NCBI GenBank assembly: GCA_022072055.1
Contig: JAJVIK010000007.1
Location: 1 to 64,000 of the forward strand
DNA length: 64,000 nt
DNA from: a bacterium
GTDB taxonomy: Bacteria; Hinthialibacterota; Hinthialibacteria; OLB16
Reading direction: 5' to 3'
Below are positions 51,263-55,334 of the stretch, in pieces (position 1 is the first letter of the stretch; each line of letters opens with the position of its first letter). The translations under genes and the position numbers were made by a program. The notes under the pieces are model-generated. The model worked only from the letters and a program-made list of their open reading frames with translations. It searched no databases and had not been told where the DNA came from.

Positions 51263-53113
51263 CTAGGAAACTGAGACTCCCGCTCCCGGAAAGAGCAACT
51301 CAAACTCCAACCCCTCGCCGGGCTTGTTATGGACCTTCAGCCCCGCTTGGTGGTCCTCCACGATTCTTTTCACAATCGACAACCCCAGGCCGAACCCGCC
51401 GGAGGTGTGAGTCCGGAAGGGGACGAAGATCTCGCGTGAATCGCCCGCGTGGAGCCCCCCTCCCGTGTCGGAAAGTGAGAGCATCACCGCGGGTCCGGCG
51501 CTCCATTCCGCCAGGTTTTCGTCCGGTGGGGCGACGACCAAGTCGCCGGGAAGGCCGGAAAAATCCCACGGCTCCATCACCCTTGCGCGGACCGCAATCC
51601 GCCCTCCTTGGGGCATGACATTCAGGGCGTTCAGGAGGATGTTCATCAACATCTGGCGGAAGCGGGACGCGTCGGCGCGCAGAGGCGGCAGATTCTCGGG
51701 AAGGTCGAGGTAGACTTCCGTCCCCTGGTCGCGCAAACGAACACGGAGAAGTTGGAGAATGTTGGTCACCTGTTTGCGCAGATCGACCGGAGTGAATTCA
51801 ACTGGCTGGGGCCGGGCGATCTCCAGGAGCTGCGAGACACACCGGTTGATCCCGTGAAGCTGCGAGGTGATGACCTCGATATCCTCCCGCTCGGCGTCGT
51901 TTCGCGATTCCCAGGAATCGATCAGCATCTTGACCACCGCGAGCGGGTTGCGAATTTCGTGGGCCACTCCGGCCGCGAGTTCCCCGACGAGGGATCGTTT
52001 GTCGAGATCGTGGACTTGCTCCTCGAGAATCTTGGCCTGACTGACCGTGCGGGCGTTCTGGATCGCGATGGCGCACTGGGAGGCCAGCATCGAAAGGAGG
52101 TACACTCCATCTTCGTTGTAGCGATATCGTCGCGCGGAGTAGACATTGAGAGCGCCGATCACGCTTTCGCGCCACTTGATCGGGACCGAGAGGAGCGAGA
52201 CCAGTCCCTCGCTCTTGGCCAGTTCCCGGCGAACATATCCCTGGCAGGTCCGAACATCCCTCACCACAACCGGTCGCCCGGTCCGCACCACGCTTCCGAT
52301 CAGCGAAGTGGCGATATCGAGCGAGGGGTTGCGGAGATAGTCCGGCGAGGCCCCGTAGATGCTTTCAAGCACAAGCTGGTCCCCCTCCGAATTCACCAGC
52401 ATGAGGCTCGCGGTCTTGGCGCGCATGAGCACAGTGGCCTGTTCCACAACCGACTGCAGGACATCGTGGATTTCCAACTGGGAGGTGATGGTGTTTCCGA
52501 CCGCTTGCACGGCCTCCAGGGTTGCGGTGCGGCGAGCCAGCGCGGCTTCGGCGCGGAGCTTGTCCCAGCGCCAGGATTGGGATTCGAGGGCTAGGAGAAT
52601 CCGCGAGGGGACATCCCCTTCAGCGGTCTCGGGGATGGGAAAGGCGATCACTCCCCGAATTTGACCATCCCCCTCCAGGCGAGCGGCCCACCACCCTGGT
52701 CTCCCCTCGGCAAGGCCATCGGGCAGCATCCCCTCCAGTGGCCCCACCATCCCTACGGGCTCATGGGCCGGGTCGAGGAAACGAAACAGTTCCGAGCCGA
52801 CTGGGAGCGCGCGAGGGAAACCGATGGGCGGACGCTGAAGGTGAGGATGGACCGCCTCCAGCACGAGTTCACGGTCCGCGGGGTCCTCCGGGTCGGCGAT
52901 GTAGGCGGACTCGAAGCCCTCTTCGCGACCAAAAGGGGGAGCATGGATCCCATCCGCAAAGGCCTGAAACAACCCATGCGAGGGAGGAGACTCCTCGAGG
53001 AAATGTCTTCCATCCTCCCGTAGAATCCAGATCGCGAGGGTCTGGACCTTCAGTTCGGCGGCAAGACCCGCGAGCACCGGAGTAAGGATCGGTCCGAGCT
53101 CCTCAAACCACAC
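51263..53113 (-). CDS. GAF-domain sensor histidine kinase
   Basis: The 616-residue cytosolic kinase (GTG start) has a poorly conserved N-terminal sensor region (1-200), a GAF domain at about 205-360, a dimerisation domain with phospho-His385 in G-V-A-H-E-I-R-N-P, and an ATPase domain with the N box near L-L-N-A-L-N, S-D-T-G-G-G-L and F-G-L-G-L-S-I-V. No membrane helices are visible, so it senses a soluble signal. No response regulator lies beside it. The start overlaps the end of the YjbQ gene by 11 bases. Confidence 0.92.
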   Translation of the reverse strand: MWFEELGPILTPVLAGLAAELKVQTLAIWILREDGRHFLEESPPSHGLFQAFADGIHAPPFGREEGFESAYIADPEDPADRELVLEAVHPHLQRPPIGFPRALPVGSELFRFLDPAHEPVGMVGPLEGMLPDGLAEGRPGWWAARLEGDGQIRGVIAFPIPETAEGDVPSRILLALESQSWRWDKLRAEAALARRTATLEAVQAVGNTITSQLEIHDVLQSVVEQATVLMRAKTASLMLVNSEGDQLVLESIYGASPDYLRNPSLDIATSLIGSVVRTGRPVVVRDVRTCQGYVRRELAKSEGLVSLLSVPIKWRESVIGALNVYSARRYRYNEDGVYLLSMLASQCAIAIQNARTVSQAKILEEQVHDLDKRSLVGELAAGVAHEIRNPLAVVKMLIDSWESRNDAEREDIEVITSQLHGINRCVSQLLEIARPQPVEFTPVDLRKQVTNILQLLRVRLRDQGTEVYLDLPENLPPLRADASRFRQMLMNILLNALNVMPQGGRIAVRARVMEPWDFSGLPGDLVVAPPDENLAEWSAGPAVMLSLSDTGGGLHAGDSREIFVPFRTHTSGGFGLGLSIVKRIVEDHQAGLKVHNKPGEGLEFELLFPGAGVSVS

Positions 53114-53510
53114 CCGAGCCCACCGCCTTTACCCACACCTTGCGTGTCCGCGGCCCATCAAATTCGCACAGATACACCCCTTGCCAGGTCCCAAGGAGGG
53201 GTTCCCCTCGTTCGACCAGGAGATGCACCGAGGACCCGACAAGAGAGGTTTTCAGGTGCGCGGCCGAGTTCCCCTCGGCGTGCCGGTATCCATCCTCAAA
53301 CGGAACGATCTTGGCGAGTTCCATGAGGAAGTCATGGACCACATCCGGATCGGCGTTCTCCTGGATCGTGACACCCGCGGTGGTGTGCGGAACAAACACG
53401 ACCAAGGCGCCTTCGGAGAGACCGAGTTCGGCGATGGCGCGCCTTACCGAGGTTGTGATGTCGATCATCTCACAACGTCTATGGGTGGAAACGCGAAACT
53501 CGTGGGGCAT
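53103..53510 (-). CDS. YjbQ/UPF0047 family protein
   Basis: The 135-residue product matches the YjbQ family: V-P-H-T-T-A-G-V-T-I-Q-E-N near 40-52, H-A-E-G-N-S-A-A-H-L-K near 77-87, and L-G-T-W-Q-G-V-Y-L-C-E near 105-115, where the His residues form a metal site. Members have weak thiamine-phosphate synthase activity; the physiological role is unsettled. It is coupled to the histidine kinase gene. Confidence 0.93.
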   Translation of the reverse strand: MPHEFRVSTHRRCEMIDITTSVRRAIAELGLSEGALVVFVPHTTAGVTIQENADPDVVHDFLMELAKIVPFEDGYRHAEGNSAAHLKTSLVGSSVHLLVERGEPLLGTWQGVYLCEFDGPRTRKVWVKAVGSGVV

Positions 53511-53549: not shown

Positions 53550-54566
53550 TCATCGCAGATGCCTCCGCTTCTCGAACGCGGTCCACCAAATCACGCGCTC
53601 CATTTCCCCGACCCGCGCGAGACGAATCTCCGAGGCGAAGGGGGGGATATCCGGCCCGAAGCGCTCCGGCCACTCGATCAGGGTCAGCGCGCCGGGGTCG
53701 TCGAGGATTTCTCCCAGGCGCTCACGATCCACCAACGAAGGCGAGACGAGACGATACCCATCCAGGTGATAAACCCGGCAACCGGGAAGATCGTAAACAT
53801 GCTCCAAATCGAATGTCGGACTCCGAACACGCTTTTCCCAGCCGAGGGCGGCGAGGAACCCACGCACCCATTCGGTTTTCCCGGCTCCCAATTCGCCGGA
53901 CAAGCGGATCATCCCAGGCGGATCGAACCGCCTCGCCACGCTCGCGGCAAGCGCATGGGTCTCCTCCGGCGAATGACTGATCCATTCCAGGCGCTGAACC
54001 TCATAGACTGTTCGCTCGGTGATCACCGAGCGGACCGGGACATCCCAGTCCTCTCGCGGGACCGACTCGACCATTTGGCATTCATACGCGAGACCGATGC
54101 GTGGGGTGGCTTCGGGGAGACGGGTCAGATAGCTGTCGAAGAAACCGCCCCCTCGTCCCAGGCGATTCCCCCATGGGTCGAAAGCCACGCCCGGGGGAAC
54201 CAACAGGTCGATCTCCTTCGGGTCCACGGCCTGGTCCCGGCTTGGATCGGGAGTGGGAATGCCGAAGTCGCCGACCGCCAGGGCATCCGGCGGAACGGCC
54301 AGACGATGGAATTCCATCATCCCATCCGGGTGGACCCTGGGAACCAGGACGGGCAAGCCCTTTGCCCAGCGCTCCCGCAACAGGGGGCGAGTGTCCACCT
54401 CGGATCCGATCGAGAAGGTGAACGCGGGGAGCCTGGAAGCGATGTATCGGGGATCGGACCGGAGAGTGGCGAGGATGCGCGCGCCATACAGGGCGCGCAA
54501 ACCGGGGGGAAGGTTGTCGCGGATCGATAGGAACTGGGAGCGGAGACTCTTTTTCAGGTCACGCAA
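53550..54566 (-). CDS. Fusion of 5-formyltetrahydrofolate cyclo-ligase and TsaE
   Basis: One uninterrupted 338-residue frame encodes two normally separate proteins. Residues 1-190 are 5-FCL (K-K-x-L-R start, P-G-V-A-F-D-P-W-G-N-R-L-G-R-G-G-G near 125-141), which turns 5-formyl-THF into methenyl-THF using ATP. Residues 195-338 are TsaE, the ATPase needed with TsaB and TsaD for the t6A37 modification of tRNA: Walker A G-E-L-G-A-G-K-T at 224-231, S-P-T-F at 249-252, H-L-D-G-Y-R-L at 267-273, and I-E-W-P-E near 297. Neither domain is truncated. It follows the YfgM-like gene by nine bases. Confidence 0.93.
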   Translation of the reverse strand: MRDLKKSLRSQFLSIRDNLPPGLRALYGARILATLRSDPRYIASRLPAFTFSIGSEVDTRPLLRERWAKGLPVLVPRVHPDGMMEFHRLAVPPDALAVGDFGIPTPDPSRDQAVDPKEIDLLVPPGVAFDPWGNRLGRGGGFFDSYLTRLPEATPRIGLAYECQMVESVPREDWDVPVRSVITERTVYEVQRLEWISHSPEETHALAASVARRFDPPGMIRLSGELGAGKTEWVRGFLAALGWEKRVRSPTFDLEHVYDLPGCRVYHLDGYRLVSPSLVDRERLGEILDDPGALTLIEWPERFGPDIPPFASEIRLARVGEMERVIWWTAFEKRRHLR

Positions 54567-54575
54567 CTCTTCGGA

Positions 54576-55334
54576 TCAGCTCTTGGGCGCGCGCCAATTC
54601 AGCGGCAGGGACTCAACCGGCTTGACGCGGGACCAGGTGAGTTCGGCATCCGCGACTCCATTCCAAGGGGAGCGCTTGGCCACCTTGAGGAGCAACTTCG
54701 CGCCCTCGTCCGCTTGATTCATTTTGAGGAGGACTCGCCCCTTCTGATAATAGAAACGATCCCAGGGGGAGCCTTCTCGGTCTCGGTCGGACGCGTCCGG
54801 CTCCTTGCCCAGGTCAGGCGCGAGGGAGTCGAGGGTTTGAATCGCGCCCTCGAAGTCACCCTTGTTTTCCTGGGCGGTGGCGAGTTGGTACTTGAGGTCG
54901 GCTTGCAGGCTCTTGGGGGCTTCCGGGATGATGCGGTGCAGGATAGTGATGGCGGTTTCGTATTCGCCGCTGGCGAAGGCGATATTGGCCCGGACCATCT
55001 CGGCGGCAACCGAGATGCCGCCCATGGAATACTCGCCTCCGGGGAGAACCTTATTGAGCTCGGAAAGCGCCGAATTGGCGTCCCCTGATTCGAAGTCGGT
55101 CTTTGCCTGACTCAGGATCAGGTTCGCGTTGTCGATCTTTCCGAGACGTGAATTGCGCCAGGCCACGCCACCAATGCCCAGCACAATGACAGCCACCAAA
55201 GCGCCATAGAGAATTCCCTGATAAGGGGCGAAATAGCGCTGCCAGAAATCATTGAACTGCTCACGGATGACTTGAAAATCATCCTGCTTGATCGTTTCGA
55301 CAACCTGCTTATGCTTTAACCTTCGGCGCGGCAT
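54576..55334 (-). CDS. YfgM-like membrane TPR protein
   Basis: The 252-residue protein has a basic, cytosolic N-terminus, one membrane helix at about 42-60, and a periplasmic helical domain with TPR-like pairs (residues 70-240; for example A-L-S-E-L-N-K-V-L-P-G-G and G-D-F-E-G-A-I-Q-T-L). This architecture matches YfgM-type ancillary subunits of the Sec translocon, although sequence identity to them looks low. It begins an operon with the 5-FCL/TsaE fusion. Confidence 0.72.
   Translation of the reverse strand: MPRRRLKHKQVVETIKQDDFQVIREQFNDFWQRYFAPYQGILYGALVAVIVLGIGGVAWRNSRLGKIDNANLILSQAKTDFESGDANSALSELNKVLPGGEYSMGGISVAAEMVRANIAFASGEYETAITILHRIIPEAPKSLQADLKYQLATAQENKGDFEGAIQTLDSLAPDLGKEPDASDRDREGSPWDRFYYQKGRVLLKMNQADEGAKLLLKVAKRSPWNGVADAELTWSRVKPVESLPLNWRAPKS

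Follow-up and report, generated by a model that had tools for sequence, protein, structure and literature searches.

The locus described here, from a bacterial lineage about which little is known, raises the question of whether two housekeeping enzymes of different pathways are encoded as one functional protein, and how and why they came to be joined. 5-Formyltetrahydrofolate (5-formyl-THF) is a folate (vitamin B9) by-product, and TsaE is required for the tRNA modification t6A. The 5-formyl-THF cyclo-ligase (5-FCL, also MTHFS or YgfA) recycles 5-formyl-THF, which inhibits folate enzymes (PMC3223725), and TsaE acts as the ATPase switch that resets TsaD-TsaB (PMC9654439). Within the window, i.e., the whole stretch of 64,000 nucleotides that was analysed, a single open frame on the reverse strand (53550..54566, TTG start, stop codon included) encodes a protein of 338 amino acids; an internal stop codon was looked for in this frame and none is present. 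Residues 5-184 of the protein (54015..54554, reverse strand) correspond to the Pfam family 5-FTHF_cyc-lig (E 2.1e-36) and residues 198-323 (53598..53975, reverse strand) to the Pfam family TsaE (E 2.5e-26). Against the NCBIfam equivalogs, the 5-FCL half scores 150.7 bits with TIGR02727 (cut-off 84.9), covering model positions 1-182 of 182, and the TsaE half scores 88.2 bits with TIGR00150 (cut-off 60.1), covering positions 7-133 of 135. The original prediction of two complete enzyme domains in one uninterrupted frame is thus borne out, as both halves lie above the equivalog cut-offs in a frame without internal stop and each is assigned to its own family by both domain databases. The 5-FCL half keeps the two motifs by which this family is recognised, the N-terminal K-x3-R (K5-x3-R9) and the glycine-rich GxRxGxGxGYYD, the latter within PGVAFD..GNRLGRGGGFFD at residues 125-144; the stretch PGVAFDPWGNRLGRGGG occupies residues 125-141. 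The TsaE half retains the Walker A sequence GELGAGKT (224-231), HLDGYR (267-272) and EW (298-299). The cyclo-ligase motif at 125-141 and the Walker A at 224-231 are therefore exactly where they had been placed before.

A sequence search of the PDB led from the first half to 5-FCL structures and from the second half to structures of TsaE, among them the Thermotoga TsaBDE complex, and Foldseek relates the predicted folds to 2jcb (E 1e-17) on the one hand and to 5np9 and chain E of 6n9a on the other. The AlphaFold2 model of the fusion contains two well-folded domains with a mean pLDDT of 93.4 and a pTM of 0.79, by which alone the relative domain orientation was judged; the underlying alignment is shallow for TsaE, with seven stand-alone rows and two fusions. 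According to DSSP of this model, the junction (residues 187-196; 53979..54008, reverse strand) lies inside one continuous beta strand spanning residues 187-197, and a flexible linker between 5-FCL and TsaE is predicted to be absent. The fusion shares the full-length domain, the motifs and the fold with bacterial 5-FCL (TIGR02727; PDB 2jcb, 1ydm, 1sou), and in the fold comparison its 5-FCL half is 31-35% identical to the solved structures. Likewise, it shares the full-length P-loop ATPase domain, the Walker A, HxDxYR and EW with TsaE (YjeE/YdiB; TIGR00150; PDB 5np9, 5mvr, 1htw, 6n9a, 6s84). However, the known 5-FCLs are usually stand-alone proteins of about 190 amino acids, whereas here a TsaE domain is added at the C-terminus, and the known TsaE proteins, usually also stand-alone with about 150 amino acids, contrast with a TsaE that is joined behind 5-FCL without a linker.

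A six-frame search of the source genome (5.86 Mb, 32 contigs, 96.6% complete) detected one 5-FCL and one TsaE, both of which are located inside the frame 53550-54566, and no stand-alone 5-FCL or TsaE was found elsewhere in the 5.86 Mb. Separate genes for the two enzymes, which had been named as a finding that would speak against the fusion, were accordingly not found in this genome. All partners of TsaE are encoded: TsaD at C11:153222, TsaB at C2:321316, which was confirmed by TIGR03725 and is on the same contig 2 yet away from the fusion, and TsaC/Sua5, with two matches for Sua5/YrdC-domain (TsaC-type) proteins on C4 and C8. Since TsaD, TsaB and Sua5/YrdC are present and the only TsaE found is that of the fusion, the t6A pathway is present and needs the fused TsaE.

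The same order of domains is found throughout the class. An intact fusion is present in 12 of the 14 class genomes, each time as the sole TsaE above cut-off, and together with a broken copy in G005 these fusions span five families. Identity to the window protein amounts to 30-47%, with G002 as the nearest (47%) and the others at about 30-33%. Fusions of family f2 (L008, L009, L010, L012, L014) have in common an N-terminal extension of about 17-22 amino acids, in which a conserved LKRRAFP-like stretch precedes the 5-FCL domain. In G005 the 5-FCL half is intact and the TsaE half is frame-shifted (locus L141, contig C34, about 1474-2583, followed by tsaB and rimI), which could be due to sequencing error or to decay. 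In G001 neither the 5-FCL nor the TsaE half was detected, and the gene for the TPR-repeat protein that otherwise precedes the fusion is absent as well; as this genome does encode TsaD and TsaB, an assembly gap is likely. The class genomes have sizes of 4.1-6.9 Mb, and the phylum is seemingly represented by a single class in the genome set used. The G+C content is 62% in the window and 51-65% in the regions flanking the fusions of the relatives. For Candidatus Hinthialibacterota (GTDB OLB16), genome sizes of 3.39-7.54 Mb and a G+C content of 49.7-65.0% have been described (PMC11382960), with which these values agree.

Outside the class, a search of 372 genomes with a fusion profile gave, among the matches listed, none that covers both halves; the matches listed extend to an E of about 1e-36, and a genuine fusion should stand higher in the ranking than that. 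A weak match to residues 1-241 in Peptostreptococcus (L110) was considered as a fusion and rejected, as it is 5-FCL alone with no TsaE in the locus. A scan of genome contigs with four sequences returned, among the matches listed, one fusion, that of the known relative OFTM149 (JAJDBZ010000333.1), which is weak evidence of absence elsewhere. The OFTM149 record was deposited as Candidatus Omnitrophota, and members of Hinthialibacterota have been misfiled as Omnitrophica in the past (PMC10066038). In the literature searched, no published description of a 5-FCL-TsaE fusion was found. That t6A genes do merge with operon neighbours is known from TsaB-RimI fusions, in which the partner is not 5-FCL. 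A fusion of TsaE with an aminoglycoside-phosphotransferase-like domain is another case of this kind, again with a different partner and without 5-FCL. As a combination of domains 5-FCL-TsaE is new, while each of the two families is well known.

The gene neighbourhood suggests where the two genes met. Directly upstream of the fusion, the window contains the gene of a TPR-repeat protein (252 amino acids; 54576..55334, reverse strand), whose stop is located 9 bases before the TTG start, and a member of this family stands before the fusion in seven class genomes, the source genome among them. Directly downstream, on the same strand, tsaB is found in seven class genomes, followed by rimI in six of these; the neighbours were identified by running family models on representatives of each cluster. 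The fused tsaE is therefore encoded beside tsaB and rimI in the relatives, as is the case for known tsaE genes, and this context shows that the fusion locus belongs to t6A synthesis there. The source genome and the relative closest to it differ from this, as tsaB is not adjacent to the fusion there. In the window, a gene of the UPF0047 (YjbQ-type) family (53103-53510, reverse strand) stands directly downstream, in the position that tsaB has in other families, and is adjoined by a gene for a GAF-domain sensor histidine kinase (51263-53113, reverse strand).

The layout tsaE-tsaB-rimI in the relatives suggests that 5-FCL joined tsaE within that operon. It is very probable that the protein is a bifunctional 5-FCL-TsaE which arose inside a t6A operon and has been kept for the sake of co-expression. 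In the proposed scenario, a 5-FCL gene just upstream of tsaE in the operon would have lost its stop codon and become continuous with tsaE, most likely only once, in the ancestor of the class. The N-terminal half can be assumed to act as an ATP-dependent 5-FCL that converts inhibitory 5-formyl-THF to 5,10-methenyl-THF, and the C-terminal half as TsaE, i.e., as the ATPase subunit by which the TsaB-TsaD complex is reset while t6A37 is synthesised on tRNA, so that the fused protein would now be the sole source of both activities in the cell. Both halves are probably catalytically active, and the attached 5-FCL presumably does not keep TsaE from docking on TsaB-TsaD. The simplest consequence would be that the two housekeeping enzymes are necessarily co-expressed at 1:1. 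Co-expression is sufficient to account for the fusion and is the most economical reading; the physiological reason for the join is inferred, as are the single origin and its route.

Three other explanations have to be weighed against this one. An artefact of assembly or sequencing, i.e., a missed stop codon or a frameshift near codon 190, has a practically negligible probability and was ruled out, as 12 separate assemblies show the join, at 30-47% identity and with constant spacing where compared. This recurrence in independently assembled relatives excludes that a stop was lost or a frame shifted by error, so that the doubt about codon 190 attached to the original prediction can be set aside. 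It is also very unlikely that one half is catalytically dead and persists merely as a structural tail or binding partner. Although a fold can survive the loss of activity, both halves keep their family motifs and pass the equivalog cut-offs, and the search for a second copy of either half found none. In nine fusions compared, K5, R9, D130, G133, R135, G137, G139, G141 and D144 are invariant in the 5-FCL half, and L226, G227, G229-T231, H267, D269, Y271, R272, E298 and W299 in the TsaE half. Both halves are under purifying selection, with dN/dS values among three congeners of 0.15-0.19 for 5-FCL and 0.06-0.21 for TsaE. Together with the confident fold, the single copy and the conservation throughout the class, this upholds the earlier view that neither half is degenerate. 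The fusion is real, ancient and maintained by selection.

The third alternative, which we regard as improbable though less so than a dead half, is that the two halves are coupled. Occupancy of 5-FCL by folate or ATP would then alter the ATPase cycle of TsaE or its docking on TsaB-TsaD, and one-carbon status would tune t6A levels or the reverse. 5-FCL and TsaE both use ATP, which counts in favour of this explanation, as does the predicted rigid, continuous strand instead of a flexible linker. Moreover, 42-44 residues separate the Walker A of TsaE from the last motif of 5-FCL (xITE or a variant of it) in nine of nine fusions, a spacing that is thus unchanged despite 30% identity; however, this may mean merely that both domains need those residues. 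The geometry of the junction in the model would permit mechanical communication between the halves, which falls short of proof. A second, unfused closeness of 5-FCL to t6A genes is seen in two related Bacillota MAGs, RUG11176 (L048:3055-6552) and RUG14212 (L097:3059-6549), where separate genes for TsaE, a TsaB-RimI fusion, TsaD and 5-FCL follow each other on one strand (family models were run on L048, and the layout of L097 is identical). That 5-FCL stands there just after tsaE-tsaB/rimI-tsaD is in line with coupling, but this case is one lineage and operon adjacency alone. The tsaB-rimI context of the fusion itself fits simple co-expression and coupling equally well; equal dosage and a link between folate state and tRNA modification had both been put forward before as possibilities. 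The more far-reaching version, in which a rigid 5-FCL-TsaE is allosterically coupled and makes t6A responsive to one-carbon (5-formyl-THF/ATP) status throughout the class, appears slightly less probable still.

With the bifunctional protein kept for co-expression as the preferred explanation, the class gains a molecular marker in this fusion, which joins housekeeping enzymes of two different pathways, is present in single copy and extends through the lineage. Should the halves be independent of each other, the fusion would be an example of a fusion of operon neighbours that was fixed by co-expression. At the same time, the fusion is a natural construct for asking whether one-carbon metabolism and the t6A modification of tRNA communicate.
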